In this document: positions 1,842 through 48,351 of the stretch, one piece after another | Layout of the letters: each line of letters opens with the position of its first letter | Numbering within the stretch: position 1 is the first letter of the stretch | Assembly (NCBI RefSeq): GCF_000973105.1 | Contig: NC_015844.1 | Location: forward strand, 4,522,501 to 4,586,500 | Origin: Zobellia galactanivorans | Lineage (GTDB): Bacteria > Bacteroidota > Bacteroidia > Flavobacteriales > Flavobacteriaceae | DNA length: 64,000 nucleotides | Direction of reading: 5' to 3' | Program-made: the position numbers and the translations under genes | Notes under the pieces: model-generated | Database searches by the model: none | Told to the model about the DNA's origin: nothing | The model's input: the letters and a program-made list of their open reading frames with translations, nothing else

Positions 1842-1884
1842 TGACCTAGGTCATTCTTTTGGTTGTGCTTCCATTATACTTTAG
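1842..1884 (+). promoter_or_regulatory. Island motif site 1 plus -7 box, upstream of hsp20
   Basis: A perfect palindrome TGACCTAGGTCA lies at 1842-1853. A -7-like box TACTTTAG lies at 1877-1884 and starts 35 bp after the palindrome start. The site therefore sits near -41 relative to a start point near 1888, as for a class II Crp/Fnr-type activator. Confidence 0.75.
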
Positions 1885-1919
1885 CCGTACGTTAATTGTT
1901 TAACTAAAAAGTTGATATT

Positions 1920-2354
1920 ATGTCACTAATTAAATTTAACAAAAGACCCTGGGGAAATCTTGTAAGTAATGATTTTTTCAACAACGACGATTTTTTTAAT
2001 GGAGGTTCTTGGTTGGGAAAACTAGAAGAGCCGGCCATGAATGTTAAGGAAAACGAAGATAATTTTGAAATTGAACTTGCGGCACCTGGTTATGACAAGA
2101 AAGATTTCAATGTGAGTATCGATAATGGGTGCCTGAACATTTCAGCGGAAAATTCCAATGTCAAAAAAGAAGAGGAAGATAACTATAGCCGTAAGGAGTT
2201 TAGTTATACCTCTTTTCAAAAATCACTCCGATTGCCTGAAAGCGTAGCCGACGATAAAATAAAGGCGAGCTATAAAGATGGCCTTCTCAAATTCAAAATT
2301 GCCAAAAAAGAAGAAGCCAAAAAACACAGTCCGAAAACTGTAGAGATATCATAA
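1920..2354 (+). CDS. Small heat-shock protein, Hsp20/alpha-crystallin family
   Basis: A 144-residue ATP-independent holdase chaperone. The N-terminal arm is short and rich in Asn/Phe/Trp. The alpha-crystallin domain spans about residues 36-130 (starting near PAMNVKENEDNFEIELAAPG) and ends with the usual DGLLKFKIAKKE strand. The tail carries a VEI motif of the IxI type used for oligomer contacts. Length fits the family. It is a single-gene unit immediately downstream of motif site 1, which suggests control by the island regulator rather than by a heat-shock repressor; no CIRCE-type repeat was seen. Confidence 0.95.
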   Translation: MSLIKFNKRPWGNLVSNDFFNNDDFFNGGSWLGKLEEPAMNVKENEDNFEIELAAPGYDKKDFNVSIDNGCLNISAENSNVKKEEEDNYSRKEFSYTSFQKSLRLPESVADDKIKASYKDGLLKFKIAKKEEAKKHSPKTVEIS

Positions 2355-2444
2355 GAAACACTAATCGTTAGAACAGCCTTCTTATCAAAACCTGTATGCG
2401 TCCATGTAGGTAGGTTAGATATGAGGGCTTTCTTTTTGTTATAA

Positions 2445-2500
2445 TTCTTCTTCTTCTTCTTCTTCTTCTTCTTCTTCTTCTTCTTCTTCTTCTTCTTCTT
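2445..2500. repeat. (TTC)n trinucleotide microsatellite
   Basis: About 18.7 uninterrupted copies of TTC (56 bp) in the intergenic region between hsp20 and the next gene, roughly 90 bp upstream of motif site 2. On the minus strand it reads GAA repeats. It produces a spurious poly-lysine reading frame and is not judged coding. Confidence 0.95.
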
Positions 2501-2591: not shown

Positions 2592-2634
2592 TGATATTGG
2601 TCAGGGAGAGACCGTATTTAATTACGGTAATTTG
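2592..2634 (+). promoter_or_regulatory. Island motif site 2 plus -7 box
   Basis: TGATATTGGTCA lies at 2592-2603. The expected -7 position (2627-2634) reads GTAATTTG: the TTTG half aligns exactly at the island spacing and the TA half does not. The target is the gene starting at 2668, probably with the following phospholipase-D-type gene. Confidence 0.6.
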
Positions 2635-4755: not shown

Positions 4756-4798
4756 TGATTTGGATCATATTTAGATAGAGGTATAGTTCGTAAATTTC
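4756..4798 (+). promoter_or_regulatory. Island motif site 3 plus -7 box, upstream of patatin-like gene
   Basis: TGATTTGGATCA lies at 4756-4767, with TAAATTTC (seven of eight positions allowed by TAnnTTTG) at 4791-4798, again at exactly 35 bp. The predicted start of transcription is about 15 bp before the ATG at 4818. Confidence 0.7.
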
Positions 4799-4817: not shown

Positions 4818-5594
4818 ATGAATATAGGTCTTGTACTTTCAGGAGGAGGAATTAGGGGAGTGGCGCATATTGGCGCTATAAAGGCTTTAGAGGAGCACGG
4901 GATATTCCCGACACATATATCGGGTACCAGTGCCGGAGCCATTGTGGGAGCACTCTATGCGGGAGGTGTCGGTTGGGCCGAAATATTACATTTTTTTAAA
5001 ACCATCCCCCTATTTCGTACACAGAAGTATGCCCGTAGCAAACCGGGCTTTTTAGATACGGAGAAGTACTATGATAATTTCAAGGAATTTTTTCCCAAGG
5101 ACGATTTTAGTGTATTAAAGAAACCGCTCTACGTAACGGGTACCGACATCATAAAGGGTACGCTCAAAATATTCCATAAGGGGCAACTCATTCGACCAGT
5201 ATTGGCCTCGGCTTCCTTTCCGGGAATGTTTACCCCTACAAAAATAGGTGACGCTTATTATATTGACGGGGGGGTTCTCAATAATTTCCCCATTGAACCG
5301 CTAAAGAATAAGTGCGATAAAATTATCGGGGTCTATGTCAATCCACTGAAAAAAATAAGAATGGAAGATCTAAAACATTCTTATACTGTCGTGGAGCGGG
5401 CCTATAAATTGAAGTCCGCTTCCGAATCCATGCTAAAATTCGCGGAATTTGACATGATTATCTCCCCTGAAGGTCTTTCCGCTTTCGGCACCTTCGATAT
5501 GAACAGTATCGATGCCATATTTGAATTGGGCTATCGGGCCGCTAAAAAAAATCTTGAAGAAAACGACGTAGCATTGCAGTTTACGGTTGAATAG
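4818..5594 (+). CDS. Patatin-like phospholipase family protein
   Basis: A 258-residue cytoplasmic or membrane-associated lipid acyl hydrolase of the patatin/RssA type. The oxyanion loop GGGIRG is at residues 9-14, the nucleophile S38 lies in GTSAG (36-40), and the partner aspartate D150 lies in DGG, giving the complete Ser-Asp dyad. There is no signal peptide, unlike the larger outer-membrane PlpD-type proteins. It is a single-gene unit behind motif site 3, between the Cls-like gene and the sensor kinase. The substrate is not predictable; phospholipid turnover is the usual inference. Confidence 0.9.
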   Translation: MNIGLVLSGGGIRGVAHIGAIKALEEHGIFPTHISGTSAGAIVGALYAGGVGWAEILHFFKTIPLFRTQKYARSKPGFLDTEKYYDNFKEFFPKDDFSVLKKPLYVTGTDIIKGTLKIFHKGQLIRPVLASASFPGMFTPTKIGDAYYIDGGVLNNFPIEPLKNKCDKIIGVYVNPLKKIRMEDLKHSYTVVERAYKLKSASESMLKFAEFDMIISPEGLSAFGTFDMNSIDAIFELGYRAAKKNLEENDVALQFTVE

Positions 5595-5628
5595 TATAGC
5601 AAATAGTGTCGGTTAAAGTAGAAATCAT

Positions 5629-5671
5629 GACAAAGGTCATGTTTCTATAAGGAAGACCATTATATATTTGT
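5629..5671 (+). promoter_or_regulatory. Island motif site 4 plus perfect -7 box, upstream of the sensor kinase operon
   Basis: TGACAAAGGTCA lies at 5629-5640 and a perfect TAnnTTTG box (TATATTTG) at 5664-5671, at the same 35-bp register. This implies autoregulation of the kinase/response-regulator operon. The leader to the ATG at 5835 would be about 160 nt, unusually long among these units. Confidence 0.75.
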
Positions 5672-5834: not shown

Positions 5835-8800
5835 ATGGTAGAAAAACTAAAAGACAATGACCTTTTCAAAGGAATATTTGAATCTTCGGTAGAAGGTATT
5901 ATTGTGGTGGACTATAAGGGGCGCATTTTCAGGGCCAACCCTTCAGTAGAAAAAATGTTCGGCTACGGACCGGGTGAATTGGCCCATAAAACGGTAGAAG
6001 ACCTTGTGCCGGGCCAATATGGAAAATCCCATCAAAACCATAGAAAGAACTTTGCCAAAAAACCTACGTCCCGACCTATGGGAAAAGGAGGGAATCTATG
6101 GGCCCTGAGAAAAGACGGCTCACAGTTTCCTGTGGAAATCAGTTTGAGTCCGACCCAAATCAACGATGAAAACGTTGTGGTTGCCTTTGTCATAGATATA
6201 ACCGATCGTTTATTGGCCGAAAAAAAGGCCGCCGTCAGTGCCGAGAAAATGAACGAGGCACAAAGTTTGGCCCATATCGGTAGCTGGGTATGGAACCTGA
6301 GGACCAATGAAAGAAACTGGTCGGATGAATTTTATAGAATATGCGGCCTGCCTCCTGGTGATAAGCGGTTAAATGTTGATACGGTCCTACAATTCATTCA
6401 TCCAGACGACCGTCAAGCTACCATAGACGACATTGCATACGCCATTGAAAACAAAACTTCCTATTCCAACAATAAAAGAATGGTCAGAACCGATGGTAGC
6501 ATACGATATATCACGGCAAGGGGTAAGGCCTCATATGACAATGAGGGCAAGCCCTTGGAATGGTTCGGCACCATACAAGACGTCACGGAACAAAAGGCAA
6601 CCGAACAGCAACTCGAAGAAAACCTGACCAAGAACAAAGCTTTGCTAGAGGCTTTGCCCGATATGATGTTTATATTGGATTATGAAGGGGAATTTCTTGA
6701 CTACTATGTACCCGAACCCGAAAAATTGTTCGCTCCGGCGTCTAGTATAATAGGGGGGCATATAAAAGAACTCTTGCCGCCCCATATTTGCCAGGCGATT
6801 CGCGATGGAATCGATAAAACTATTAAAACTAACGAAATACAATTTGTAGAGTACAATTTTGACGGGGAGAAGGGAAGGCAATTTTACGAAGGCCGTATTG
6901 TCCCTATGGACAAAAACCGCCTTCTGACCATTATCCGTGATATTACGAACGAAAGGGCCATAGAGAATATTCTATATGTGCGCAATCAGGCTCTGGCGGC
7001 AACGGCCAACGGGATTATTATTTGTGATGCCCGAGAGCCCGACCATCCTATTATATATGCCAATGAGGCCTTTTGTAAGACCACGGGATATGATGAGGAC
7101 GATTTTATGGGGAAGAATTGTCGTTTCTTACAGCGTGAGGACAAGGATCAGTTCGAGATCAAATTAATGTCCGAGGCTATTAGAAATGGAGAGGATTGCC
7201 GTGTGGTGTTGCGTAATTATAGAAAAGATGGTTCCTTGTTTTGGAACGAGGTGAGTATTACGCCCATATACAATGAAGAAAAGGTGTTGACCCATTTTGT
7301 TGGGGTACATAACGATGTTACGGCCCATAAGGTAGAGGAGTTTTTTAAGATCGGGCAATCCCATGTTATGGATATGATCATTCAACATGAACCATTGGAA
7401 CACATTGCCTATAAAATTGTAGAGACCATTGAAACCGCCATTCCCAATTGCCATGGGTCAATTCTGTTATTGGATAAGGAAACGGGCAGTTTAAGGCAAT
7501 TGGCGGCACCAAACGTGCCGAAAAGCTTTACGGATGCCATTGAGGGAATGCAAATAGGAGCAGAAAACGGGTCTTGTGGTGCAGCGGCCTATTTAAAAAA
7601 AGAAATCATTGTTTCCGATACCTCTAGTGATCCGCTTTGGAGCGCATTTAGGGAATTGGCCGAGGAAGCCAACCTTAAGGCGTGTTGGTCCTTCCCTATA
7701 TTTTCGTCCAACCAAGAATTGCTGGGCACCTTTGCCATTTACTTCAATGTTTCGAGAATACCGCTCGATACCGAAAAGGAAATCATATATAATATCACCC
7801 AGGCCACAAGTGTGGCCATTGAGCAGCACAATATCAGCGCAGCGCTACGGAAGAGTAGGGAAGAACTGGCCGTCTATGCCGAAGCACTGGAAAACAAGGT
7901 GGCCGAACGTACCGTTGAATTAAAGGATATGGTGCGGAAGTTGGTGGAGTCGAATATGAATCTCGAAGATCAAATTCAGATTACCAAGACCGCCGAAAAC
8001 AGTGCTATTGCCAGTCAAGAGTTGTTGGTTACCATTTTTAGAAATTTTCCCAAGGGCTTTGTAGGGGTGGTCGATATGCATTTACGTGTAGTGTTCATAG
8101 AGGGCGAAGATCTCGATACACTCAATTTCAGGAAGGCTATACAAGTGGGGGATACCATTGACGAGTTAAACAATGTTCCTGCCGAACTAAAGAAAAAAGT
8201 GAAGCAAAACGTACTAAAGACCTTAAAAGGCGAACATCGCTCCTTTGAGGCGAAAGTACAAGGCAAATCGTATTTGGTCAATACCACCCCTTTGTTCAAT
8301 GAGGAGCAAGAGGTGGTTCAGGCCTTGATCGTCTATAATAACATTTCCGACCAAAAACGGGTAGAGGTCGAGATTCGCAATACGCTGCAAAAGGAAAAGG
8401 AACTCAACGAGTTGAAATCTAGATTCATTTCAATGGCTTCCCATGAGTTCAGAACTCCCTTAAGTGCCATTCTATCGGCAACCAACCTTATTGAAAGGCG
8501 AAATGGCGACGGTCAGGAAGAAAAGCGAACAAAGTATATTCAAACCATAAAGGGCAGTGTGAAAAATTTGGTAGACATACTGAACGATTTCCTATCTTTA
8601 AGTAAATTGGAAGAGGGCAAGGTAGTGGCCCAGCCCATCTTGTTCGATTTTGTTGAATTTATAGAGGTATTGGTAGAAGAGGTCCAAGGTGTGAAAAAGA
8701 ACGGACAGACCATAGATGTCATTAACAGCCGTTCGCGTATAGAAGTAGGGCTTGACACCAAATTACTAAGACATATTGTACATAATTTATTGTCTAACGC

Positions 8801-9113
8801 CATAAAGTATTCTGAAGAGCACAAGCCTATTACGTTAAAAATCGATACCAAGGACGATAAGCTTTTTATTGAGGTTGCGGATCGGGGTATCGGAATACCG
8901 GCAGAGGATCAAGATTACCTGTTCCAGCGTTTTTATCGGGCAAAAAATGCCACCAATTTTCAAGGTACAGGGTTAGGTTTGAACATTGTAAGGCAATACA
9001 CGCTTTTAATGAACGGAACTATCAGCTTTCGGAGCCAACTTGGCCAAGGCACCACTTTTATCGTAGAACTCCCCTTAAATCTTTTGACAAATGAAAAAAA
9101 TACTGCTTATTGA
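5835..9113 (+). CDS. Multi-sensor histidine kinase: PAS/LOV-GAF-PAS-HisKA-HATPase
   Basis: A 1092-residue soluble sensor kinase with no membrane segment. Visible order: PAS 1 (about 10-130), PAS 2 of PAS_3 type (about 140-260), PAS 3 (about 265-380), a LOV-like PAS 4 (about 385-500), GAF (about 515-665), coiled coil, PAS 5 (about 725-850), HisKA with phospho-acceptor H870 in SHEFRTP, then HATPase with N box (HNLLSNAIKYS), G1 (DRGIGIP) and G2 (GTGLGLNI). PAS 4 contains GKNCRFLQ with C429 at the photoadduct position and both flavin Asn positions (RNYRKDGSLFWN). The Gln normally in the FVGVQxD strand is His492. The kinase is therefore intact and likely senses light and/or redox with small ligands. 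It overlaps the downstream response regulator by 23 bp, so the two are a cognate pair. Confidence 0.93.
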   Translation: MVEKLKDNDLFKGIFESSVEGIIVVDYKGRIFRANPSVEKMFGYGPGELAHKTVEDLVPGQYGKSHQNHRKNFAKKPTSRPMGKGGNLWALRKDGSQFPVEISLSPTQINDENVVVAFVIDITDRLLAEKKAAVSAEKMNEAQSLAHIGSWVWNLRTNERNWSDEFYRICGLPPGDKRLNVDTVLQFIHPDDRQATIDDIAYAIENKTSYSNNKRMVRTDGSIRYITARGKASYDNEGKPLEWFGTIQDVTEQKATEQQLEENLTKNKALLEALPDMMFILDYEGEFLDYYVPEPEKLFAPASSIIGGHIKELLPPHICQAIRDGIDKTIKTNEIQFVEYNFDGEKGRQFYEGRIVPMDKNRLLTIIRDITNERAIENILYVRNQALAATANGIIICDAREPDHPIIYANEAFCKTTGYDEDDFMGKNCRFLQREDKDQFEIKLMSEAIRNGEDCRVVLRNYRKDGSLFWNEVSITPIYNEEKVLTHFVGVHNDVTAHKVEEFFKIGQSHVMDMIIQHEPLEHIAYKIVETIETAIPNCHGSILLLDKETGSLRQLAAPNVPKSFTDAIEGMQIGAENGSCGAAAYLKKEIIVSDTSSDPLWSAFRELAEEANLKACWSFPIFSSNQELLGTFAIYFNVSRIPLDTEKEIIYNITQATSVAIEQHNISAALRKSREELAVYAEALENKVAERTVELKDMVRKLVESNMNLEDQIQITKTAENSAIASQELLVTIFRNFPKGFVGVVDMHLRVVFIEGEDLDTLNFRKAIQVGDTIDELNNVPAELKKKVKQNVLKTLKGEHRSFEAKVQGKSYLVNTTPLFNEEQEVVQALIVYNNISDQKRVEVEIRNTLQKEKELNELKSRFISMASHEFRTPLSAILSATNLIERRNGDGQEEKRTKYIQTIKGSVKNLVDILNDFLSLSKLEEGKVVAQPILFDFVEFIEVLVEEVQGVKKNGQTIDVINSRSRIEVGLDTKLLRHIVHNLLSNAIKYSEEHKPITLKIDTKDDKLFIEVADRGIGIPAEDQDYLFQRFYRAKNATNFQGTGLGLNIVRQYTLLMNGTISFRSQLGQGTTFIVELPLNLLTNEKNTAY

Positions 9114-10158
9114 AGACAATTACGATGTACGTGAAATGACCGCGGAAATTCTGGAACTTGAAAATTACCGGGTAGCCACCGCCGAAAACGGCAAAATCGG
9201 TATTGAAAAGGCGAGGTCTTTCGCCCCCGACCTAATTCTTTGCGATATAATGATGCCCGAAATGGATGGTTATGGCGTTTTTGAACAACTGAGCCAAGAC
9301 CAAAAAACGGCCTGTATCCCCTTTATCTTTTTAACGGCCAAATCGGAAAAATCCGATTTGCGGAAGGGAATGGCCATGGGGGCCGACGATTACTTGACCA
9401 AACCTTTTGAGGCCATAGATTTGATCGAAGCCATAGAGGCACGGCTCAGGAAGAATTCCTTTTTGCGCAAAGAATTTTCAAGAAATGTACAAGGCATCAA
9501 TGATTTTATAAAGGAGGCTTCAAAATATCAAAACCTAAAAGATCTTTCGGCTGACCGTAGCTTGACCCAGTATAGGCCTAAAGAAGAGATTTTTTCGGAA
9601 GGGAGCATGGCCCATAATCTCTACTTTATACAAAGTGGGGAGGTTAAAACGTACAAGCACAATGAAAACGGTAAAGAGTATGTGACCGGCATGTTCAGTG
9701 CGGGCGATTTTATAGGGCAACTTTGTGTCTTGGGAAGTTCGGGTATGTATACGGAAACGGCCGTGGCCCTTAGTCACTGTGAAATATGTAGTATTCCCAA
9801 GAAAGATTTCACCCAACTGTTGTTCAACAATAAAGAGGTATCGCATAAGTTTATCGGTATGATCTCGAACAATGTTCTTCATATGCAAAACCAATTGATG
9901 GGCATGGCCTTCGATTCGGTACGTAAAAGGGCCGCTACCGCTTTGTTGGAACTGTACGATAAAGGGCTTATCAAAGATGATGATATGGGTATCAGTATCT
10001 CTAGGGAAGATTTTGCGGGCTTGATCGGTACGGCGACGGAGACGGCCATACGGGTACTATCGAGTTTTAAGGATAAAGGGTTGATCCAATTGGGCGAATC
10101 GCGTAGAATTATACTCTCGGATAAAAAACAATTGCAACAGGTGGCCGACTTTGGCTAG
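9091..10158 (+). CDS. Response regulator: REC fused to Crp/Fnr-type cNBD and HTH; candidate master regulator of the island
   Basis: A 355-residue protein. The receiver domain (about 1-122) has phospho-acceptor D52 in LCDIMMPEMDG and the conserved Lys in TKPF. A cyclic-nucleotide-type beta-roll spans about 150-265 and a Crp-type winged HTH covers the last 75 or so residues. The cNBD lacks the GE...R-S/T-A cAMP signature (GQLCVLGSSG...TETAVAL instead), so cAMP binding is unlikely and phosphorylation is the probable input. The recognition helix TATETAIRVL places E317 and R321 four residues apart, as E181/R185 of Crp and E209/R213 of Fnr, which read the TGA core. Thr replaces Crp R180, as Val does in Fnr. 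This matches the TGA-N6-TCA palindromes across the window. No Fnr-type N-terminal Cys cluster is present. Confidence 0.92.
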   Translation: MKKILLIEDNYDVREMTAEILELENYRVATAENGKIGIEKARSFAPDLILCDIMMPEMDGYGVFEQLSQDQKTACIPFIFLTAKSEKSDLRKGMAMGADDYLTKPFEAIDLIEAIEARLRKNSFLRKEFSRNVQGINDFIKEASKYQNLKDLSADRSLTQYRPKEEIFSEGSMAHNLYFIQSGEVKTYKHNENGKEYVTGMFSAGDFIGQLCVLGSSGMYTETAVALSHCEICSIPKKDFTQLLFNNKEVSHKFIGMISNNVLHMQNQLMGMAFDSVRKRAATALLELYDKGLIKDDDMGISISREDFAGLIGTATETAIRVLSSFKDKGLIQLGESRRIILSDKKQLQQVADFG

Positions 10159-10761: not shown

Positions 10762-11091
10762 CTATTTGTGTAGTTGGGCGTTTTTCTTCTTAAGGTCTTC
10801 CAGTTTACGTTCTAAAGTAGATATGATATCATCGGCCTTGTAACTCATATTGCTAATGGTCTCATCTAGTTTTTGTTCGAACTCTTCTTTCTTTTCGTTG
10901 GCCGTTTTGGTCAGTTCGTCTTTGGCATGTGCCATTCGTTCCGTTAGGTCGTGTTTGGCATCCAAAGCCTTGTCTTTGATTTTATGTCTTGTTTCAACTC
11001 CTTTGTCGGGGGCATAAAGTATTCCGATACCCGCACCGATTGCTGCTCCTGTCAATAGAGCAAGAAGAATGTTTCCACTATCGTTTGCCAT
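10762..11091 (-). CDS. YtxH domain-containing general-stress protein
   Basis: A 109-residue protein with one N-terminal membrane segment rich in Gly/Ala (ILLALLTGAAIGAGIGILYAP), followed by the family signature APDKG and a long charged coiled-coil tail (about residues 35-109). YtxH proteins are general-stress proteins in Bacillus; the molecular role is unknown. It is the first gene of a three-gene minus-strand operon reading away from the shared palindrome at 11158-11169. Confidence 0.9.
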   Translation of the reverse strand: MANDSGNILLALLTGAAIGAGIGILYAPDKGVETRHKIKDKALDAKHDLTERMAHAKDELTKTANEKKEEFEQKLDETISNMSYKADDIISTLERKLEDLKKKNAQLHK

Positions 11092-11126: not shown

Positions 11127-11200
11127 TAAAGTTAGTCAGGTAAAATTTTTGACCATATGACCTAGGTCAGGCATATAGAAAATATCTACTTGTACTTTAG
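11127..11200. promoter_or_regulatory. Island motif site 5: one palindrome between two divergent -7 boxes
   Basis: The perfect palindrome TGACCTAGGTCA lies at 11158-11169. To the right, TACTTTAG at 11193-11200 begins 35 bp from its start (gene at 11253). To the left, on the minus strand, TAACTTTA at 11134-11127 begins 35 bp from its other end (ytxH operon). A single symmetric site thus appears to serve both directions. Confidence 0.75.
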
Positions 11201-11776: not shown

Positions 11777-11819
11777 TGACCTAGGTCATAGTTTTCTAGC
11801 ACATATAGCCGCAATTTTA
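11777..11819 (+). promoter_or_regulatory. Island motif site 6, upstream of the sigma-like gene
   Basis: A perfect palindrome TGACCTAGGTCA lies at 11777-11788. The 35-bp register places the -7 box at 11812-11819, which reads CAATTTTA: the A and the central TTT fit TAnnTTTG and the ends do not. The ATG follows at 11848. Confidence 0.65.
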
Positions 11820-15710: not shown

Positions 15711-15714
15711 AATA

Positions 15715-16689: not shown

Positions 16690-16696
16690 GATGTGC

Positions 16697-18175: not shown

Positions 18176-18205
18176 CTGTATATAAGAGTTTAACCTTATC
18201 AGGTG

Positions 18206-18248
18206 CAAAGGTGCCCTGTCTCGATACCAATTGGAATGACCTAAATCA
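18206..18248 (-). promoter_or_regulatory. Island motif site 7 plus -7 box for the efflux operon
   Basis: Plus-strand TGACCTAAATCA at 18237-18248 (TGATTTAGGTCA in gene direction). The box CACCTTTG on the minus strand (18213-18206) differs from TAnnTTTG only at the first base and begins 35 bp from the motif start. The same CACCTTTG occurs at site 8. Confidence 0.72.
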
Positions 18249-19547: not shown

Positions 19548-19576
19548 AGGCTTTTAGATTAGTGGTCGTAGAACAT

Positions 19577-21714: not shown

Positions 21715-21757
21715 CAAAGGTGTAATTATCTGGGCACAATTGGTATGACGAAAGTCA
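21715..21757 (-). promoter_or_regulatory. Island motif site 8 plus -7 box for the coiled-coil/ubiB/mgtC operon
   Basis: Plus-strand TGACGAAAGTCA at 21746-21757. The minus-strand box CACCTTTG (21722-21715) starts 35 bp from the motif and is identical to the box of site 7. Confidence 0.7.
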
Positions 21758-24243: not shown

Positions 24244-24286
24244 CAAAACTATTTTAAAGGATTATGGTAAACTATGATTTAAATCA
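24244..24286 (-). promoter_or_regulatory. Island motif site 9 plus perfect -7 box for cmd-ftsH
   Basis: A perfect palindrome TGATTTAAATCA lies at 24275-24286. The minus-strand box TAGTTTTG (24251-24244) is a full TAnnTTTG match at the 35-bp register. The leader to the ATG is about 55 nt. Confidence 0.72.
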
Positions 24287-24417: not shown

Positions 24418-24460
24418 TGACCCAAGTCATTTCCGGCCAAACAAGCAGCACATACCTTTG
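24418..24460 (+). promoter_or_regulatory. Island motif site 10 plus perfect -7 box for the WG-repeat gene
   Basis: TGACCCAAGTCA lies at 24418-24429 and TACCTTTG, a full TAnnTTTG match, at 24453-24460. The ATG is at 24486. Confidence 0.75.
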
Positions 24461-25199: not shown

Positions 25200-25242
25200 T
25201 GATACAGGTCATGGGTTTTCTTGAGACCTCAGGGTATTTTTG
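25200..25242 (+). promoter_or_regulatory. Island motif site 11 plus perfect -7 box for the usp operon
   Basis: TGATACAGGTCA lies at 25200-25211 and TATTTTTG, a full TAnnTTTG match, at 25235-25242. Confidence 0.73.
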
Positions 25243-31438: not shown

Positions 31439-31485
31439 TTTTAAGTTCTAGTATAATTCAAAACTAATGGATATTGACCTTGACA

Positions 31486-33938: not shown

Positions 33939-33981
33939 CGAATCTCCGATGATTCCCTGCCAATGGAAATGACCTAGGTCA
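33939..33981 (-). promoter_or_regulatory. Island motif site 12, ppsA operon side of the divergent promoter
   Basis: A perfect palindrome TGACCTAGGTCA lies at 33970-33981. At the 35-bp register the minus strand reads GAGATTCG (33946-33939), a weak match (A, TT, G) to TAnnTTTG. The centre is 31 bp from the centre of site 13. Confidence 0.62.
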
Positions 33982-34000: not shown

Positions 34001-35547
<1,547 letters not shown>

Positions 35548-35563
35548 AACGAAACAAAAAACC

Positions 35564-36577: not shown

Positions 36578-36578
36578 T

Positions 36579-37307: not shown

Positions 37308-37369
37308 CAAGGAAGGGTATTCCTTTTTTAAATTAATTCAAAACTGGTTTAACAATAAAATTTAACACT

Positions 37370-37639: not shown

Positions 37640-37646
37640 ATAAAAC

Positions 37647-38393: not shown

Positions 38394-38415
38394 ATAGAAT
38401 GGAAATCGAAATGAA

Positions 38416-39945: not shown

Positions 39946-39963
39946 GCACCAAAAATAAGAGGC

Positions 39964-40975: not shown

Positions 40976-41428
40976 TTAGGTCTCGCGACGCCTACCGGTA
41001 ATCTCAAGGATTTTGATTATATATATGATAGGATTGCCCCTAGAATAGGATTTACTTGAAAACTCATTGATAAATTCAACATTTTTATGCTCCTGCCTAT
41101 GGATAATCCCTTTTATGCCTTCTACAAAGGTATGAAGTTTCTCTTTGGCCTTTTCGCCATTAAGCTCTTCAAATTCGCCAAGGACAAGGGCGGATTCCCA
41201 ATTCACCATGGATTGGATTTCTTCCACTACCAGGGAAACGGATGAATTTTTTCTCAATGCATTCACTTTATGACCTTCCGTGGTGTAGCTTATGAGAGTA
41301 TTGTCCTCAGGGTCGAAATAGTACGTTATGGGTACTACATAGGGTTTTCCGTCTGAGATATACGCCAGATGGCCGGTGTAATTTTTTCTAAGGATACTGG
41401 TACTTTCACTAACTGAGATTTCATTCAT
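40976..41428 (-). CDS. FMN-binding split-barrel protein (pyridoxamine 5'-phosphate oxidase-like)
   Basis: A 150-residue protein of the Pyridox_ox_2 type. The N-terminal part has YTGHLAYISDGKPYVVPITY, then YTTEGHKVNALRKNSSVSLVVEE and WESALVLGEFEEL, as in the flavin split-barrel family. The biological substrate is not known; members act as flavin- or F420-type reductases, or as heme or nitroimidazole reductases. The gene is divergent from nothing nearby; motif site 14 lies about 170 bp upstream. Confidence 0.85.
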   Translation of the reverse strand: MNEISVSESTSILRKNYTGHLAYISDGKPYVVPITYYFDPEDNTLISYTTEGHKVNALRKNSSVSLVVEEIQSMVNWESALVLGEFEELNGEKAKEKLHTFVEGIKGIIHRQEHKNVEFINEFSSKSYSRGNPIIYIIKILEITGRRRET

Positions 41429-41593: not shown

Positions 41594-41636
41594 TGAAGGT
41601 ATTACAGTATTAAAAAACGCCATATGATTTATGTCA
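41594..41636 (-). promoter_or_regulatory. Island motif site 14 (weaker), probably for the split-barrel gene
   Basis: TGATTTATGTCA lies at 41625-41636. The minus-strand box at 41601-41594 is TACCTTCA, two mismatches to TAnnTTTG at the 35-bp register. The leader to the ATG at 41428 would be long (about 165 nt). Nothing matches on the plus strand. The remainder of the 279-bp gap 41429-41707 shows no gene. Confidence 0.5.
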
Positions 41637-41707: not shown

Positions 41708-42688
41708 TTATTCTTTTTGATTCTTTTCCTGTTGCTTTTCCTGCTTTTTGAAATAGCCACGGGTCAAAAAATTATGTTTTAAGGCTTCCATGTTTTCGTT
41801 GAATTTGACCAGCCCCTCATCTACGTTCTTTACGGAGTTTTGAAGCTGGTGTACCAAGGTGGTATCCGTTGCCAAATAGTTTATGGCCCCTTTGCCTTTG
41901 TTTATCCGGTCTACTATGGTGTTGAGGTTTTTTGCGGTTCCCTCAATTTCTACGGATGCGTTTTCAAGGTTATCCAATACATTTCGGATTTTTGCCCCGG
42001 AAAGCGAGTCGCCCAAGAGAGTTCCGGCAACACTTTCCTTTGAATTGAAATGTTGTACAAGTTCATTTAGTTTATGCATGGTCGTGCGGGCATCGTTACT
42101 GGTCTGTTTTAGGTTGATCAAGGTCTGTTTTAAGTCACCTCCCATAAGCGTGTCATTGAGTAAACGGCCCAAGGTTCCGTCTCCGTTATTGATAGAGCGG
42201 GTAATATGAAGGAGCTGCTCGGTCAATAGGGCGGCATTTTCATTGGTTACGCTTAAGGTATTCATCATATCCGCAGTGGCCACTCCACTAAACGAATTGA
42301 TTTCATCCCCAGATTCAACATAGGGTGCTTCGCCTACGCCAGGAACGATGTTAATGATCATACTGCCCACTAGGCCATCTGAGCCGATATTGGCTATAGC
42401 GTTTTTTTTGATGTGTTTTTGCATTTTGGCATCGATGAGCATATCTACCTCGATTGTGGTATCGTTGATCATTTCAATATACTTTACCGTACCGATGCTG
42501 ATACCGGCATAACGAACATTGTTGCCATTCTGTAGCCCCCGTATGTTCTTAAAGCTAACCTTTAGGGTAAAGCTATTGCCGAACATGTTTTGTTGGTTTC
42601 CGATGAAATAGATGACCAGAACCAGTAGTGCCGTACCTATGAGAACAAAAATCCCTAACCTAAATTTCTCCGATGCTGATTTTTCCAT
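41708..42688 (-). CDS. mlaD: MlaD-like MCE-domain lipid-transport protein
   Basis: A 326-residue protein with one N-terminal membrane anchor (about 10-30) followed by the MCE domain (about 38-118, with SFKNIRGLQNGNNVRYAGISIG) and a long helical tail rich in Asn/Thr/Leu that would form the central needle/channel. It belongs to the inner-membrane Mla-type phospholipid transporter and is the last gene of mlaE-mlaF-mlaD. The C-terminus is very Gln/Lys-rich (KKQEKQQEKNQKE). Confidence 0.92.
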   Translation of the reverse strand: MEKSASEKFRLGIFVLIGTALLVLVIYFIGNQQNMFGNSFTLKVSFKNIRGLQNGNNVRYAGISIGTVKYIEMINDTTIEVDMLIDAKMQKHIKKNAIANIGSDGLVGSMIINIVPGVGEAPYVESGDEINSFSGVATADMMNTLSVTNENAALLTEQLLHITRSINNGDGTLGRLLNDTLMGGDLKQTLINLKQTSNDARTTMHKLNELVQHFNSKESVAGTLLGDSLSGAKIRNVLDNLENASVEIEGTAKNLNTIVDRINKGKGAINYLATDTTLVHQLQNSVKNVDEGLVKFNENMEALKHNFLTRGYFKKQEKQQEKNQKE

Positions 42689-42691
42689 AAT

Positions 42692-43480
42692 CTATTTTTT
42701 AAAGAAGGCCTCTATTTTGGGGTCCTTAGATTGTGAGAGTTGGGCGTAGCTACCTTCGGCGTAGTTGATACCATCGACCAATAGGATCATTCGGTCCGAG
42801 ATGACCCTGGCACAATCGACATCGTGTGTTATGATCAATGAAGAGGTGCCATATTTTAACTGTATGTTGCGCATTAATTCAATGATTTCCTTGGAAGTGA
42901 TCGGGTCTAAGCCGCTTGTAGGCTCATCGTAAAGAATGATTTTTGGGCGTAAGATCAATGTTCGGGCCAAGGCTACCCTTCTTTTCATTCCTCCCGACAG
43001 TTCTTCTGGCATCAGGTCGATGGTATGTGCCAGCCCCACATTTTCCAAGGCTTCGACTACCAAGGCCTGGGTATCTGTCTGTTTTCCGAATTTCTCCTTG
43101 TGCCGTCGTAAAGGGAACTCCAAATTCTCACGTACCGTCATTGAATCGTACAATGCGCTTCCCTGAAATAGGAAACCGATATCGGAGCGGAGTTCATCGA
43201 GGGTTTCGCGATCTAGGTTTTTAATTTCCTTCCCCATAACCGAAATATACCCCGTATCGGGTTGTATAAGCCCCACCAAACACTTTATCATCACCGATTT
43301 TCCCGAGCCCGATTTCCCCATGACCACTAGGTTCTCCCCCTTATGCAATTTCATATGGAAGCCATTGAGCACCTTATGGCCCGAAAAACTCTTATAGAGA
43401 TCTTTGATTTCCATGATCACCTCCTTTGTAGGGGCTTTAGGACGATTCTTTACGGGTATGTTTTTCTCTTCATCCATCAT
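42692..43480 (-). CDS. mlaF: MlaF-like ABC transporter ATP-binding protein
   Basis: A 262-residue ATPase. Walker A GKSGSGKS at 55-62, signature LSGGMKRRVALAR, and Walker B IILYDEPTSGLDP. It powers the lipid transporter with MlaE and MlaD. It overlaps mlaE by 4 bp and precedes mlaD by 3 bp. The N-terminus carries about 20 extra polar residues. Confidence 0.93.
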   Translation of the reverse strand: MMDEEKNIPVKNRPKAPTKEVIMEIKDLYKSFSGHKVLNGFHMKLHKGENLVVMGKSGSGKSVMIKCLVGLIQPDTGYISVMGKEIKNLDRETLDELRSDIGFLFQGSALYDSMTVRENLEFPLRRHKEKFGKQTDTQALVVEALENVGLAHTIDLMPEELSGGMKRRVALARTLILRPKIILYDEPTSGLDPITSKEIIELMRNIQLKYGTSSLIITHDVDCARVISDRMILLVDGINYAEGSYAQLSQSKDPKIEAFFKK

Positions 43481-44253
43481 ACGTCATAAAAAATATTCGA
43501 GATAAAAACGGCCACAAAATCAATAACGAACAAGAGCAAGGAAGCCATTACTACGGCCGTATTGGCTGCAATACCGACACCTGCCGTTCCCTTTTTACTG
43601 TAAAAGCCCTTGTAGCAACCTACGATTCCAATGGCAAAACCAAAAAAGAAGGTCTTGATGGTAGCGGGTATAATATCGGTATAGGTCAGTACATCAAAAA
43701 CAGTATTGAAATAGAGCTGAAAGGAAACGTTTCCTTCTATATTTTCAACCAAGGCCGATCCGAAAAGGGCAACGGCATCACTCACGACCACAAGTAGGGG
43801 GAGCATCATTATGGATGCCATAACGCGTGTGACCACCAAAAATTTAAAAGGGTTGGTTCCCGATACTTCCATGGCGTCAATCTGTTCGGTAACCCGCATC
43901 GATCCCAGTTCCGCACCTATACCCGAAGATATCCTTCCGGCACAGACCAAGGCGGTGATTACGGGCCCGAGTTCGCGTACGATCGAGATTCCTACCATAT
44001 TGGGCATCCAAGAAACGGCACCGAACTGTATCATGGTCGGTCGTGATTGTAGGTCCATGACCAGGCCTATAATAAAACCGGTGACCAATACCAAGGTGAG
44101 GGATCGATAGCCAATTTGATAACACTGTCTCAAAAACTCATTGAATTCATACGGTGGCCGCAAGGCTTCCTTGAAAAAACGAGCCGCGAAATAGGAGAGC
44201 TCCCCGATCTCGATCAGCCATTGCCTTATCTTTTTTGGAGTCTTGAAGTTCAA
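43477..44253 (-). CDS. mlaE: MlaE-like ABC transporter permease
   Basis: A 258-residue permease with five or six membrane helices and the family pattern GFIIGLVMDLQSRPTMIQFG...LGPVITALVCAGRISSGIGAELGSMRVTEQIDAMEVSGTNP split over two adjacent segments. First gene of the Mla unit, about 30 bp downstream of the start predicted from site 15. Function: retrograde or anterograde phospholipid transfer between envelope membranes. Confidence 0.93.
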   Translation of the reverse strand: MNFKTPKKIRQWLIEIGELSYFAARFFKEALRPPYEFNEFLRQCYQIGYRSLTLVLVTGFIIGLVMDLQSRPTMIQFGAVSWMPNMVGISIVRELGPVITALVCAGRISSGIGAELGSMRVTEQIDAMEVSGTNPFKFLVVTRVMASIMMLPLLVVVSDAVALFGSALVENIEGNVSFQLYFNTVFDVLTYTDIIPATIKTFFFGFAIGIVGCYKGFYSKKGTAGVGIAANTAVVMASLLLFVIDFVAVFISNIFYDV

Positions 44254-44286: not shown

Positions 44287-44329
44287 CAAATGTAAAGGTC
44301 TTACGAGGGGTTTTGAATGATTTGGGTCA
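44287..44329 (-). promoter_or_regulatory. Island motif site 15 plus perfect -7 box for mlaEFD
   Basis: Plus-strand TGATTTGGGTCA lies at 44318-44329. The minus-strand box TACATTTG (44294-44287) is a full TAnnTTTG match at the 35-bp register. Confidence 0.73.
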
Positions 44330-44362: not shown

Positions 44363-44405
44363 TGATGTGGGTCATTCTTGTTGGCATAGCCAAGGTTTAA
44401 TTTTG
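44363..44405 (+). promoter_or_regulatory. Island motif site 16 plus perfect -7 box for the ClC gene
   Basis: TGATGTGGGTCA lies at 44363-44374 and TAATTTTG, a full TAnnTTTG match, at 44398-44405. It is divergent from site 15, with 45 bp between centres. Confidence 0.73.
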
Positions 44406-44436: not shown

Positions 44437-45777
44437 ATGAAATCAATGGGCAATAGAAACGGAACAAGTAGTAAAGATCGGTCGGTAAACCTTGACATAA
44501 GGAATTATAAGCTTTTGTTGAATGCCCTTTTGATAGGTGTGATCACCGGCCTTTTGAGTTCGATTTTTAGGTTGGTGCTTGCGCGATTATCAACTTTTAG
44601 GACAACATTTCAAATAGGACAGGCCGATCAGCTATGGCAAGATTGGTTTTGGCCTATGCTTTTTACTTTTTTCGGTATCTGGTTTTCCATATTCTTGGTA
44701 AAAAAATACGCACCTGAAGCCGCGGGCAGTGGTATTCAGGAAATAGAAGGCGCCCTTGATGGTGTACGAGCTGTGAGATGGCGCAAGGTGTTACCGATAA
44801 AGTTTTTTGCCTCAATATTCTCCTTGAGTAGCGGCTTGCTCTTAGGCCGTGAAGGACCGACCGTTCAAATAGGGGCCAACGTAGGCAAAATGGTGGAAGA
44901 TGTTTTTAAACAATCTGTGGAGGAAGATAACCCTTTGATCAGTACAGGGGCCGCATCTGGTTTGGCAAGTGCCTTTAATGCCCCTTTTTCGGGAATTATT
45001 TTTGTCATAGAGGAAATGAACGGGCATTTTAAGTTCAATTTTTATTCGCTTGCGGCACTTATGATCGGTGCCGGTTCTGCCGATATGGTGGTCAGGTTCT
45101 TGGTAGGAAGCGGGCCGATACTAAAAACCACGATTTTTACTTTTGAAGACTTATCGGGACTATGGCTGTTCGTGGTATTCGGACTCATACTCAGCTTCAT
45201 TGGAATTGCCTTTAATAAACTGTTGATCGAAGCTTTGGATTTCTTTAAAAAAATAAGGATAAACCCTATGGTCATTGCTTTGGGTATCGCCTTTGTCATT
45301 ACTGCCGTAGGACTGTATTCCGAAGATATGATTGGTTCGGGATATAGCACCATTGCGAATGCTTACAACGATTCCTTTACCTTAAAATTTCTACTGGCCT
45401 TATTTGTGGTGCGGTTTTTCCTTTCGATTATGAGTTATGGGTCAGGGGTGCCGGGAGGGATTTTCACGCCCCTTATAACGCTAGGGGTAATTTCGGGAAT
45501 GCTTTTTGGCGGGATGGCCCAATATTTTTTTCCGGATGTGGTTCAAGACCCGGCCATCTTTGGTGTTGCGGGTATGGCCGGTATCTTTGCCTCGACCATT
45601 AGGGCCCCGCTTACGGGATTGGCCCTTTCGGTTGAGATGACGGCAAACTATGAGTTGATTTTACCTCTGATTTTTACTGCGGTTACGGCTTCGGTCTGTA
45701 CGACAATGCTTGGTAATGCTCCGATATACTCCATTTTGCTAAAACGAATTTTAAACAAGGGGGAGACGGCCGTTTAG
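44437..45777 (+). CDS. ClC-family H+/Cl- antiporter
   Basis: A 446-residue protein with the ClC topology. Selectivity motifs are GSGIQEIEGA (98-107), GREGPTVQIG (137-146) and GVPGGIFTP. The gating glutamate is E139 in GREGP. The internal proton glutamate of CLC-ec1 (E203) is matched by E193 in FVIEEM, which marks an antiporter rather than a channel. A GGGGA-type ribosome site precedes the ATG. E. coli ClC proteins aid extreme acid resistance; here acid from lactate fermentation is a plausible reason for co-regulation. Confidence 0.93.
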   Translation: MKSMGNRNGTSSKDRSVNLDIRNYKLLLNALLIGVITGLLSSIFRLVLARLSTFRTTFQIGQADQLWQDWFWPMLFTFFGIWFSIFLVKKYAPEAAGSGIQEIEGALDGVRAVRWRKVLPIKFFASIFSLSSGLLLGREGPTVQIGANVGKMVEDVFKQSVEEDNPLISTGAASGLASAFNAPFSGIIFVIEEMNGHFKFNFYSLAALMIGAGSADMVVRFLVGSGPILKTTIFTFEDLSGLWLFVVFGLILSFIGIAFNKLLIEALDFFKKIRINPMVIALGIAFVITAVGLYSEDMIGSGYSTIANAYNDSFTLKFLLALFVVRFFLSIMSYGSGVPGGIFTPLITLGVISGMLFGGMAQYFFPDVVQDPAIFGVAGMAGIFASTIRAPLTGLALSVEMTANYELILPLIFTAVTASVCTTMLGNAPIYSILLKRILNKGETAV

Positions 45778-45843
45778 AACTGATGATTCAGGTTTAGCGC
45801 AATACTTTCTGTTAAATTAGGTTGAAAAGCCCTTCCATAAAAC

Positions 45844-48216
45844 TCATTCGTTTTCAATACGCACCGAAAAATTTTTGCATTCCCATTTCTTCGCTTCTTT
45901 CCAATAAAATGTGAACTCCAAGGATGTGGCCTCTTTGTGGCAGGGCTGAATGTCGGTGATAAATAGTCCGATATTAAGGTGCTTTGCCTGCGTTTGATAG
46001 GTGGTTTTCCAATGGTCGTCCGTCCAATGAAGGGTACAATCGGCCAAGGTCTCGATCCGTAATGTTTTTCCCTTGGGTAAGACACGGGTTCCGTTATCAA
46101 ATCGCCACACTTGGTAATCCGATACGGTGTTTTTGCGCAAATACCTTTCACAGGTTTGTTCGGGCATATCAAATACCTTTTTATGGTCTATAGAAATACA
46201 GAGTTTGATGTATTCGGCATGGGCCCATGTCAGGGGCATTGCCGACCCTGTATGCCTACCGCGATATAGTCCCTTTTCGGGTATATCGTCTTTGTCCCAT
46301 ATCTGTTCGGGCAGTAAGCCGTTATTGGCAAAGGCATCCATAGCGTTTAGGAGTTTCCGGGCCGATTCGATATGGCCCGCGGCGATTTCATAATGGGCCC
46401 TTTCTCCTGTCAATAGGGGCCATGCCCGACCCTTTCCCGTACCGTCATAAGGGTCGCCGTTTTCATGTTCCCCATAGCCGTCATTATTGTAACGGTACCA
46501 ACAGCTGCCATTGGGGGTGTCGACTTTTAGTTCGGCATCGATTACTTTTAGGGTATTTAAGATTCTTTGGTCATCGGGTGCACGAAGGCCGAACCTGACC
46601 AAGGCCAATGCGTCTACGCTGATCAGTTCGTTAATGGGCGTTTTGCCATGGTCAAAATGATGATTTTTTAAATTGATCGTTCTGTCCCCCAATTCGGCAG
46701 CGGGAATATCGGCAAAGGGATTGATACGGATGTAATAGCCGTCTACCCCATGTTTTTGTGCTAAGGGCGTACCGGTAACATAGGTTCGGTATTCGATAGT
46801 ATCGTTCCAAGTATCGGCTGTCTCGCGACAATAGGCGGCTAAGGTTTCTTCCCCGTTTATCTCGGCCAGTTCTGCCCCGGCCAATAAGGCGGCAATTTCT
46901 GTGGCCATGGTAAAGGGCGAAAAGCCACTTTCTTCTTCCCATCGGTCTTGGTCGGTATAAGGGCCGTTTATCAATAGGAAGGTAAGGGCCTTTTTGGCCA
47001 AGGGCCAATATCGTTTCATACGATTTTTTCCTATGGTGTTGCGCAAATAACCTTTGAGCATTTCCAAAATAGGCAAGGCAATTTGGTCCATTTGAATACC
47101 GGTCCAGTTCGGTTCCCCTTGAAGCCACATATTCTGCGGCCAACTCCCATCGGCATTTTGGGTAGACATCAGATAGTTTACAATACGCGATATGTCCGCC
47201 TTGGTTTCAAGGGCGTTGAACCCACCGGCACTTTCCACGAGGTCACGGGGCCATACAACGTGGTAACCGCTTTTGTCGGAGTCTCCCTTTGTGTTTCCCC
47301 AAGGAATGGAAAGGCTCGCTATAATGCCGCCGGGAAAGTTTTTGGCCTCGTGCATACGTAGGGTAGCGGCGCTTGTCTTAAAATTTTTGGCAGATATTTT
47401 GGGCAAGGTATTTTGCCAGGTTTGCCACTCTTGTACATATCGTCTTTTTGCCGAGTTAAAACCGTTTAGGATACTCGACCTGGCATGGTTGGCCGCCTCT
47501 AAATGGGTGCGGCCAAAACTTATGGCCAAAACAAAGTCATTTTCGCTTAGGTCTATTTCGCCGGTAAGGGCGATATTCCCACGCGAAGCACGCTCATATT
47601 GCCATTTTAACTTACCGTGTTGGTGTAAATCTGTCCATCCGTCCGAAGTACCTACAAAGCCGACGGACCGATGCAGCCATTTGGTGGAACAGGCCATGGC
47701 TACGGCTATGTCGCCATTTTTGGCAAATAGCATTTCAACCCCCTTATACTCGCCAAGCCAGCCCGAGTTGTTGCCCCCTTCATTGTTTAAATGGGGTGCG
47801 AGCAATGCGAATAATTGTAATGGGGGTTCGGGATGGTTTGCTTCGAACCTTATACGTTGCAGAATAGTATTGCGAAAAGGATCGGCAATGATTTCCTTGG
47901 TAATCTTAAATTTCCCGGAGGGATCGCTATTGACGATATGATAGGCGGGAATACCTTCTTCGATTGTTTTTGTAAAGTGTTCCGTATCTCTTTTTTCCTC
48001 AGAAAAAAATCCATGTCCATCCGTAACGATGAGTCCCATATCACGTATACAGGCAATATCTTCACGTGGGTAGTAGGCTTCGTTCAGAATACCGTGGCTA
48101 AGGGTGAAAGTTACGTCGGAAGCCGAATTTAGGGCCTTTCCGATTCCTGATTTTGTACTAGAGCTCCATCTGGCCTCAATTCCTGGAGCACCTGGTGCTT
48201 CTCCGTTTTTAGACAT
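45844..48216 (-). CDS. GH15 glucoamylase/glucodextranase-type enzyme, intracellular
   Basis: A 790-residue protein. I choose the start at 48216 (MSKNGEAPGAPGIEARW); the longer frame to 48300 would begin about 6 nt after the predicted transcription start. Layout: N-terminal glucodextranase-N-like beta domain (about 1-270), GH15 (alpha/alpha)6 barrel (about 285-680) and a short beta tail. The substrate-site VVWPRDL is near 321, the general acid lies in WEEESGF (426-432), and the general base lies near EQIWDKDD. There is no signal peptide, so it should act in the cytosol on glycogen or maltodextrin, releasing glucose for glk. Confidence 0.9.
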   Translation of the reverse strand: MSKNGEAPGAPGIEARWSSSTKSGIGKALNSASDVTFTLSHGILNEAYYPREDIACIRDMGLIVTDGHGFFSEEKRDTEHFTKTIEEGIPAYHIVNSDPSGKFKITKEIIADPFRNTILQRIRFEANHPEPPLQLFALLAPHLNNEGGNNSGWLGEYKGVEMLFAKNGDIAVAMACSTKWLHRSVGFVGTSDGWTDLHQHGKLKWQYERASRGNIALTGEIDLSENDFVLAISFGRTHLEAANHARSSILNGFNSAKRRYVQEWQTWQNTLPKISAKNFKTSAATLRMHEAKNFPGGIIASLSIPWGNTKGDSDKSGYHVVWPRDLVESAGGFNALETKADISRIVNYLMSTQNADGSWPQNMWLQGEPNWTGIQMDQIALPILEMLKGYLRNTIGKNRMKRYWPLAKKALTFLLINGPYTDQDRWEEESGFSPFTMATEIAALLAGAELAEINGEETLAAYCRETADTWNDTIEYRTYVTGTPLAQKHGVDGYYIRINPFADIPAAELGDRTINLKNHHFDHGKTPINELISVDALALVRFGLRAPDDQRILNTLKVIDAELKVDTPNGSCWYRYNNDGYGEHENGDPYDGTGKGRAWPLLTGERAHYEIAAGHIESARKLLNAMDAFANNGLLPEQIWDKDDIPEKGLYRGRHTGSAMPLTWAHAEYIKLCISIDHKKVFDMPEQTCERYLRKNTVSDYQVWRFDNGTRVLPKGKTLRIETLADCTLHWTDDHWKTTYQTQAKHLNIGLFITDIQPCHKEATSLEFTFYWKEAKKWECKNFSVRIENE

Positions 48217-48308
48217 ATTTTGATAGGATGTATTGAGGTTTTTTATTTGCTTGTGGGCCTTCCTGTCTATCACCAAACCCTGGATAAATAGGAGCCTCAA
48301 TTTTAGGC

Positions 48309-48351
48309 GAAAGTTACTTCTTGTTAGGGTGGTGGAACATGATTTGGATCA
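48309..48351 (-). promoter_or_regulatory. Island motif site 17 plus -7 box for the GH15 gene
   Basis: Plus-strand TGATTTGGATCA lies at 48340-48351. The minus-strand box TAACTTTC (48316-48309) has one mismatch to TAnnTTTG at the 35-bp register. This is the last site found; none occurs further right. The rest of the gap to 48494 shows nothing. Confidence 0.7.

Follow-up and report, generated by a model that had tools for sequence, protein, structure and literature searches.

A 46-kb gene island of Zobellia galactanivorans is the probable regulon of a FixL-like kinase and a receiver-Crp fusion regulator

We analyzed a 64,000-nucleotide stretch of the genome of Zobellia galactanivorans, a bacterium associated with seaweeds (the window; bases 4522501-4586500 of the single contig of 5,521,712 bases that was scanned), in which copies of the palindrome TGA-N6-TCA mark a 46-kb block of genes reaching from hsp20 to a GH15 glucoamylase gene (1842-48351). 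This block contains an operon for a sensor histidine kinase and REC-Crp, a protein with a receiver and a Crp/Fnr-type output domain. The island is probably the regulon of this pair (5835-10158), which would constitute a FixL-FixJ-FixK-like system with FixJ and FixK fused into one protein, activating its targets at low oxygen and perhaps tuned by light. The sites, their spacing and conservation, the domain make-up of the two proteins, and the co-occurrence of site and regulator are observed in the sequence, whereas operator binding, transfer of phosphate to the regulator, the response to oxygen and light, and activation are inferred.

A tight form of the palindrome is concentrated in the block

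The original prediction had listed 17 TGA-N6-TCA sites in the block, and a pattern search recovered all 17, the one given as 5629 actually starting at 5628. The five perfect palindromes were likewise confirmed, four of them TGACCTAGGTCA (1842, 11158, 11777, and 33970) and one TGATTTAAATCA (24275). The window as a whole holds 30 copies of TGA-N6-TCA, compared to a mean of 13.8 and a maximum of 24 in 100 dinucleotide shuffles. Within 1842-48351 there are 24, seven beyond the listed 17, and the tighter form TGAY-N4-RTCA fits all 17 listed sites but none of the seven extra ones. All but one of the 17 (16/17) fall outside the listed open reading frames (ORFs); the site at 2592 lies within an ORF called from a TTG at 2563, which has an in-frame ATG at 2668, and this site is therefore upstream of the likely start.

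Genome-wide, the loose pattern is common (1309 copies), and the tight form occurs 294 times in 5.52 Mb. Equal site density throughout the genome had been named as evidence that would speak against a regulon, but the tight form is approximately 7-fold denser in the 46.5-kb block, with 17 sites observed compared to 2.3 expected at the rate outside the window (Poisson 6e-10, a value that is too kind because the stretch was selected for its sites). The palindrome TGACCTAGGTCA has six copies in the genome, four of them in the block.

The palindrome stands at a fixed distance from the -7 box

To define spacing, boxes with at least 5/6 matches to the Bacteroidota -7 box TANNTTTG were counted at spacings of 0-60 in both directions from the 17 sites, giving 34 site-orientations. 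A box was present 23 bp past the palindrome (N23) in 14 of the 34, while the other 60 spacings averaged 0.25 (binomial 1.6e-21), and the 13 remaining TGA-N6-TCA copies of the window had no N23 box. Because N23 was first spotted by eye in the window sites, independent evidence has to come from sites elsewhere in the genome and at the loci of relatives. Outside the window, 75 sites of the tight (YR) form had 12 N23 boxes compared to a mean of 1.6 across all spacings, while 137 non-YR palindromes and 116 reversed-pattern sites had one each at N23 (means 2.3 and 1.9).

The consensus TANNTTTG is the accepted -7 element of Bacteroidota, and class II Crp/Fnr activators bind at -41.5. The consensus agrees with the box found at -12 to -5 in the mapped transcriptome of Flavobacterium psychrophilum, according to the available part of that study (PMC9723704), and the palindrome would therefore span -47 to -36 with its center at -41.5. 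The activator site near -41.5 that defines class II promoters is thus present, with the start position taken from another flavobacterium, F. psychrophilum.

A matrix was subsequently trained on 100 composites (palindrome plus N23 box) from relatives, with the window excluded. In the window, it gave 17 matches at N23 with a score of at least 18, compared to 0-2 at each of ten decoy spacings. With transcription units inferred from strand and gaps, a facing composite (score of at least 17) precedes 17 of the 18 units from hsp20 to GH15, bearing out the claim that sites stand before nearly every unit. The sole unit without one is DUF6134-PLD; the PEP synthase unit passes by virtue of its palindrome, its -7 box being poor, and the patatin unit is borderline (18.0). 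The opposite-strand match at 18237 has no gene in front of it, and a second, weaker match (17.2) at 44363 points towards MlaE. Neither flank of the block within the window contains a match of at least 14, and the 46-kb block is sharply bounded.

Outside the window, 1.197 Mb of the same genome was sampled, consisting of stretches around listed palindromes, twelve evenly spaced stretches, and some neighbors of known matches; 16 matches scored at least 18, compared to 0-4 at decoy spacings, a density that is overestimated if anything because stretches were chosen around palindromes or known matches. Six of the 16 belong to a second island (4.000-4.014 Mb), which encodes universal stress proteins (USPs), MscS, an export system, a P-type ATPase, a beta-CASP nuclease, and a thioredoxin whose gene adjoins that of a cytochrome c/Tll0287 protein. 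Four lie at the locus of L122, a Crp/Fnr paralogue described below, and the others precede genes for DHBP synthase, a USP, an alginate-export-like protein, and two proteins without a Pfam match, as well as a small ORF that is followed by a molybdopterin oxidoreductase gene. A matrix scan of the kind that the original prediction had proposed, here with a matrix from relatives and over sampled stretches, thus gave 17 N23 matches in the window and 16 in the outside sample. The contiguous regulon stands insofar as 17 of 18 units of a bounded block carry the composite, but a regulon restricted to 46 kb is ruled out by the second island and the scattered promoters.

The architecture recurs around REC-Crp genes of relatives

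Comparison with homologous islands, also proposed originally, covered 80 named loci around REC-Crp orthologues, the nearest named relative found being Zobellia uliginosa (96% over REC-Crp), and showed that the N23 architecture recurs around REC-Crp genes across Bacteroidota. N23 accounted for 26 matches at 32 sites in 4 loci and for 80 at 101 sites in 12 loci, and it was still the top or second spacing at loci whose REC-Crp is 42-52% identical. At the latter, a second peak at N45 corresponds to tandem palindromes with centers 22 bp apart (-63.5 and -41.5). Such tandem palindromes ahead of a -7 box were seen at L018, L020, L024, L027, L030, and other distant loci; the logo built from Zobellia-type loci showed no such upstream dimer.

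Among the 208 composites of relatives that have a downstream ORF, the genes behind them encode USPs (31 loci), the kinase (16), Hsp20 (10), YtxH (9), the orf167 product (8), cbb3 oxidase (8), HemN (6), and a Cu-type ATPase (5). The names of the cbb3, HemN, and Cu-ATPase clusters are a reading of translations; the cbb3 and P-type ATPase homologues of Z. galactanivorans itself were checked with Pfam, and a HemN gene was located in its genome.

REC-Crp and its paralogues

The REC-Crp gene overlaps the kinase gene by 23 bp, and, as had been claimed, the operon carries its own operator, at 5628 ahead of the kinase gene. The receiver is complete (PF00072, 1.6e-29; D9, D52, T82, and K104), and matches to PF00027 (2.5e-22) and PF13545 (1.7e-13) place the protein in the Crp/Fnr superfamily. 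The E317-xxx-R321 recognition helix was found where it had been described (10039-10053), and E-xxx-R is kept in 61/61 orthologues of the helix alignment, which covers 61 of the 80 loci. An alanine two residues past the recognition glutamate is present in 17/17 close rows (16 orthologues and the window protein) and 0/45 other rows, making this residue a candidate cause of the different operator core discussed below. The N-terminus has no FNR/ANR-type cysteine cluster, the receiver standing in its place, and the cNMP pocket, judged by eye from known residues, seems unlikely to sense cAMP.

The genome encodes five Crp-type HTH proteins above the Pfam cut-off. Besides REC-Crp, L122 and L123 have E-xxx-R helices, while L124 and L125 do not. 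At the L122 locus (L137, 2638000-2657999), N23 promoters precede L122 itself, cbb3 oxidase, a heavy-metal P-type ATPase, and a USP gene.

To relate the operator to its regulator, we employed one draw of 90 family genomes, including that of Z. galactanivorans, with E cut-offs of 1e-50 for both REC-Crp and L122. The palindrome TGACCTAGGTCA was found in nine genomes, all with REC-Crp: seven of the eight with a close REC-Crp (about 54-55% or more), 2/34 with a distant one only, and 0/48 with none. The contrast between 7/8 and 2/82 is significant (Fisher 4e-8) and persists when the two Zobellia genomes are removed (5/6 compared to 2/82, Fisher 3e-6). The reversed-pattern control occurred in 8/90 genomes, only one of them among the eight with a close REC-Crp. 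In G010, G034, and G050, close and distant REC-Crp paralogues lie approximately 23-25 kb apart on one contig, which suggests a duplicated regulator within one island.

The partner kinase

The best kinase match ends no more than about 320 bp upstream of REC-Crp in 77/80 loci, the exceptions being L037, L073, and L080. In Z. galactanivorans, the kinase comprises a FixL-like PAS, further PAS domains, and LOV, GAF, HisKA (H870), and HATPase domains. The N-terminal PAS (PAS-A), which also matches the multi-sensor kinase entry 10jx, has a histidine, H66 (6030-6032), aligned with the FixL histidine that we take to be the heme ligand. This histidine is kept in 66 of the 70 partner kinases that have this PAS (79 were examined, nine without a PAS-A match; L033, with two PAS copies bearing Tyr and His, was counted as His).

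The LOV domain retains the photoactive cysteine motif (GKNCRFLQ, Cys429, 7119-7121). NCRFLQ is present in 9/80 kinases including that of the window, all from the Zobellia-type group, where 8 of the 16 named loci have it. At the end of the domain (FVGVHNDVT), a histidine replaces the usual glutamine, as it also does in Z. uliginosa DSM 2061 (L001); the other seven relatives that have the LOV cysteine retain the glutamine. Judging from these motifs, the kinase looks built to read both oxygen and blue light.

Operators and the units they face

The operators, the units they face, and the regulatory proteins are compiled in Table 1. The gap that divides the PEP synthase unit from the N-type ATPase operon holds two operators, 33970 and 34001, at a distance of 31 bp. 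The PEP synthase unit also encodes a 2-hydroxyacid (D-lactate-type) dehydrogenase, a His phosphatase, PfkB, an aldolase, and glucokinase. The N-type ATPase was identified by an alternate F1 beta subunit (TIGR03305, 828 bits, above cut-off) and by AtpR (PF12966). The product of orf256 (256 aa), whose gene has a perfect operator upstream, weakly resembles sigma region 4 at its C-terminus, with scores short of the family cut-offs, and is a possible downstream regulator.

Table 1. Operators with their facing units, and regulatory proteins (window positions; genome positions for L122 and L123)
Feature	Position (strand)	Operator	-7 box	Unit faced or basis of identification
Operator	1842..1853 (+)	TGACCTAGGTCA	TACTTTAG at 1877-1884	hsp20 (1920-2354)
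Operator	2592..2603 (+)	TGATATTGGTCA	GTAATTTG, weak N23	DUF6134-PLD unit
Operator	4756..4767 (+)	TGATTTGGATCA	TAAATTTC	patatin gene (4818-5594)
Operator	5628..5639 (+)	TGACAAAGGTCA	TATATTTG at 5663-5670	kinase-REC-Crp operon
Operator, bidirectional	11158..11169	TGACCTAGGTCA	TAACTTTA (N23, -); TACTTTAG (N23, +)	YtxH (10762-11091, -); orf167 (11253-11756, +)
Operator	11777..11788 (+)	TGACCTAGGTCA	CAATTTTA	orf256 (11848-12618) and orf135
Operator	18237..18248 (-)	TGATTTAGGTCA	CACCTTTG	TolC-HlyD-ABC2 export unit (13327-18208)
Operator	21746..21757 (-)	TGACTTTCGTCA	CACCTTTG	orf147-ABC1/UbiB-MgtC/DUF4010 (18276-21717)
Operator	24275..24286 (-)	TGATTTAAATCA	TAGTTTTG	CMD-FtsH (21837-24183)
Operator	24418..24429 (+)	TGACCCAAGTCA	TACCTTTG	WG-repeat gene (24486-25139)
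Operator	25200..25211 (+)	TGATACAGGTCA	TATTTTTG	USP gene (25284-26069) and orf143
Operator	33970..33981 (-)	TGACCTAGGTCA	GAGATTCG, poor N23	PEP synthase unit (26620-33894)
Operator	34001..34012 (+)	TGACTTAGGTCA	TACTTTTA	N-type ATPase operon (34069-40869)
Operator	41625..41636 (-)	TGACATAAATCA	TACCTTCA	PNPOx-like gene (40976-41428)
Operator	44318..44329 (-)	TGACCCAAATCA	TACATTTG	MlaE-MlaF-MlaD (41708-44253)
Operator	44363..44374 (+)	TGATGTGGGTCA	TAATTTTG	CLC channel (44437-45777)
Operator	48340..48351 (-)	TGATCCAAATCA	TAACTTTC	GH15 glucoamylase/glucodextranase (45844-48300), last unit of the island
Sensor histidine kinase, 1092 aa	5835..9113 (+)			first gene of regulator operon; Pfam and PDB matches
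FixL/DosP-like N-terminal PAS, aa 1-132	5835..6230 (+)			phmmer: FixL 1.6e-7, DosP 2.8e-6
LOV domain, aa 378-505	6966..7349 (+)			PDB LOV matches, best 5.6e-34
REC-Crp regulator, 355 aa	9091..10158 (+)			receiver, cNMP-type domain, HTH_Crp; Pfam and residues
L122, FNR-like	2647467-2648153			N-terminal CENC; helix GTATESCIR, nearly identical to REC-Crp helix
L123	HTH at 1934488-1934700			helix EEQVIR; Cys-rich N-terminus

Proposed circuit and alternative explanations

In the circuit that we propose, the kinase would sense low oxygen through its FixL-like N-terminal PAS, with the LOV domain probably modifying its output in Zobellia and half of the close relatives, and would phosphorylate the receiver of REC-Crp. 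Acting as a class II activator, a REC-Crp dimer would then bind [A/C]TGAY-N4-RTCA-T centered at -41.5 and recruit sigma-A polymerase to TANNTTTG. The predicted targets include its own operon, by presumed autoregulation; genes of proteostasis and membrane stress (hsp20, FtsH, USP, phospholipase D-like, patatin, Mla, and CLC); and genes for the use of glucans and sugars, probably with D-lactate as a product, together with the N-type ATPase. The second island and a few scattered genes would join this regulon.

Several observations weigh against assigning the island to this pair. The paralogues L122 and L123 also have E-xxx-R helices; 27 N23 composites were found at L122 loci of ten genomes without REC-Crp; G029, which has a distant REC-Crp only, contains three copies of TGACCTAGGTCA, two with an N23 box; and two window units (DUF6134 and PEP synthase) have poor N23 -7 boxes. 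Because L122 loci in genomes lacking REC-Crp share N23, the architecture alone cannot name the regulator and was discarded as proof of REC-Crp. L122 or L123 might then be the main activator of the island, with REC-Crp as a target or minor partner, given the shared helix type and, for L122, the N23 architecture around it in REC-Crp-less genomes and the promoters at its own locus. However, in the case of L122 the inner four bases of the operator argue otherwise, being A/T-only in 23/24 cases at L122 loci in REC-Crp-less genomes and 3/3 at the L122 locus of Z. galactanivorans, compared to 2/17 of the listed sites and 20/90 in close REC-Crp loci (Fisher 9e-8 with 13 window composites and 3e-11 with the relatives, base composition being uncontrolled). 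Furthermore, none of the 32 genomes with L122 but no REC-Crp contains TGACCTAGGTCA, which is present in G050 and G056, two genomes with REC-Crp and, at the 1e-50 cut-off, no L122. We regard control by L122 or L123 as quite unlikely. Core composition separates the close type only; distant-type REC-Crp loci, a further point against our assignment, are A/T-only in 16/25 cases, which rules it out as a general mark of REC-Crp. On the simplest reading, two regulons would overlap, sharing one grammar but differing in their cores, and both regulators may recognize A/T-core operators (24275 and 41625, for example). The proposal that REC-Crp is the activator is thus supported in part, by its helix and by the way in which TGACCTAGGTCA tracks close REC-Crp over 90 genomes, and weakened by the two E-xxx-R paralogues and the N23 promoters of L122 loci.

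Also to be weighed against low-oxygen control is the state of the sensor. The PAS of Zobellia has a glycine at the position of the FixL distal arginine, although several relatives keep G-x-G-R, and four close relatives (L004, L007, L010, and L014) have no FixL-like histidine; oxygen sensing is therefore not certain. In addition, the literature searched, much of it available in part, yielded no report of oxygen-dependent expression of island genes. REC-Crp might consequently control the island in response to blue light through LOV, or to redox or a small molecule through the other PAS or GAF domains, rather than to oxygen. The intact photoactive cysteine motif, the variation of the sensor part among relatives, and the PAS features just named fit such an input, but the FixL-like histidine of 66/70 partner kinases does not, nor do the promoters of relatives that precede cbb3 oxidase, HemN, and USP, which are typical low-oxygen genes. 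On balance, we consider a non-oxygen input fairly unlikely. It is extremely improbable that the palindromes arose by chance or represent generic Crp/Fnr sites, the island then being no single regulon: common as the loose pattern is, it does not account for the 7-fold excess of the tight form, the fixed N23, the coverage of 17/18 units, or the recurrence at orthologous promoters, and a chance origin was ruled out by the density, spacing, and decoy tests.

Our preferred reading, a low-oxygen regulon of the kinase and REC-Crp, can be extended into a wider scheme that we put forward only tentatively. The kinase might integrate oxygen and blue light, and the fusion regulator might switch a persistence island as a night-time hypoxia program on photosynthetic algae. 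The scheme would include a Bacteroidota-wide grammar of palindrome, N23, TANNTTTG, and often a second dimer 22 bp upstream, with the inner bases separating the targets of Zobellia-type REC-Crp from those of the FNR-like paralogue.

Low-oxygen control in Bacteroidota, which are major degraders of algal polysaccharide, appears to be little described. A literature search of partial coverage for such a regulator or for low-oxygen control in this phylum returned, judging by titles and the beginnings of abstracts, no account of this regulator. As far as the available parts of the sources go, cbb3 is induced under oxygen limitation in F. psychrophilum with crp and fnr unmentioned (PMC9723704), a study of CRP/FNR proteins in anammox communities reports MalR-like proteins in flavobacterial genomes and mentions neither a receiver nor a histidine kinase (PMC8510549), and a Zobellia expression study does not mention oxygen (PMC5613140). 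The analysis provides a precise promoter code by which testable regulons can be read from genomes throughout the phylum, and it lets one ask how near-identical recognition helices keep their targets separate.

Comparison with known systems

The closest likeness is to the rhizobial FixL-FixJ-FixK cascade, with which the Zobellia pair shares a kinase with a FixL-like PAS, a receiver, and a Crp/Fnr-type domain predicted to read TGA...TCA; the site is also present at the cbb3 oxidase and HemN promoters of distant relatives. It differs in combining the FixJ and FixK functions in one protein, which probably shortens the cascade to two components, and in its stress and fermentation targets and additional LOV domain. 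The NCBIfam FixK and FixL models give partial matches to the pair, neither of which reaches its cut-off.

Long contiguous low-oxygen islands are known elsewhere, as in the lxa locus of Burkholderia cenocepacia, where approximately 50 contiguous low-oxygen genes include those for USP, Hsp20, and metabolic functions. The Zobellia island resembles it in these contents but belongs to another phylum and has a defined promoter architecture at 17/18 units and a REC-Crp regulator with a FixL-like/LOV kinase. The DosR regulon of mycobacteria and the ANR regulon of Pseudomonas likewise contain USP, Hsp20, and dormancy-type genes, with a heme-sensor kinase (DosS/T) in the former and an FNR-type site in the latter. 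DosR, however, is a NarL-type protein with another motif, in contrast with the Crp-type output domain found here, and ANR has an iron-sulfur cluster and no receiver. Within the same genome, L122 shares the helix type and the -41.5 position with REC-Crp, but lacks a receiver, has a CxxC N-terminus and an A/T-only core, and adjoins cbb3 genes. Finally, LOV histidine kinases and PDB entry 4gcz, which we take to be a YtvA-FixL chimera, resemble the Zobellia kinase in that LOV feeds a FixL-type kinase. The chimera was engineered, whereas the Zobellia kinase is a natural protein that holds a FixL-like PAS and LOV together.

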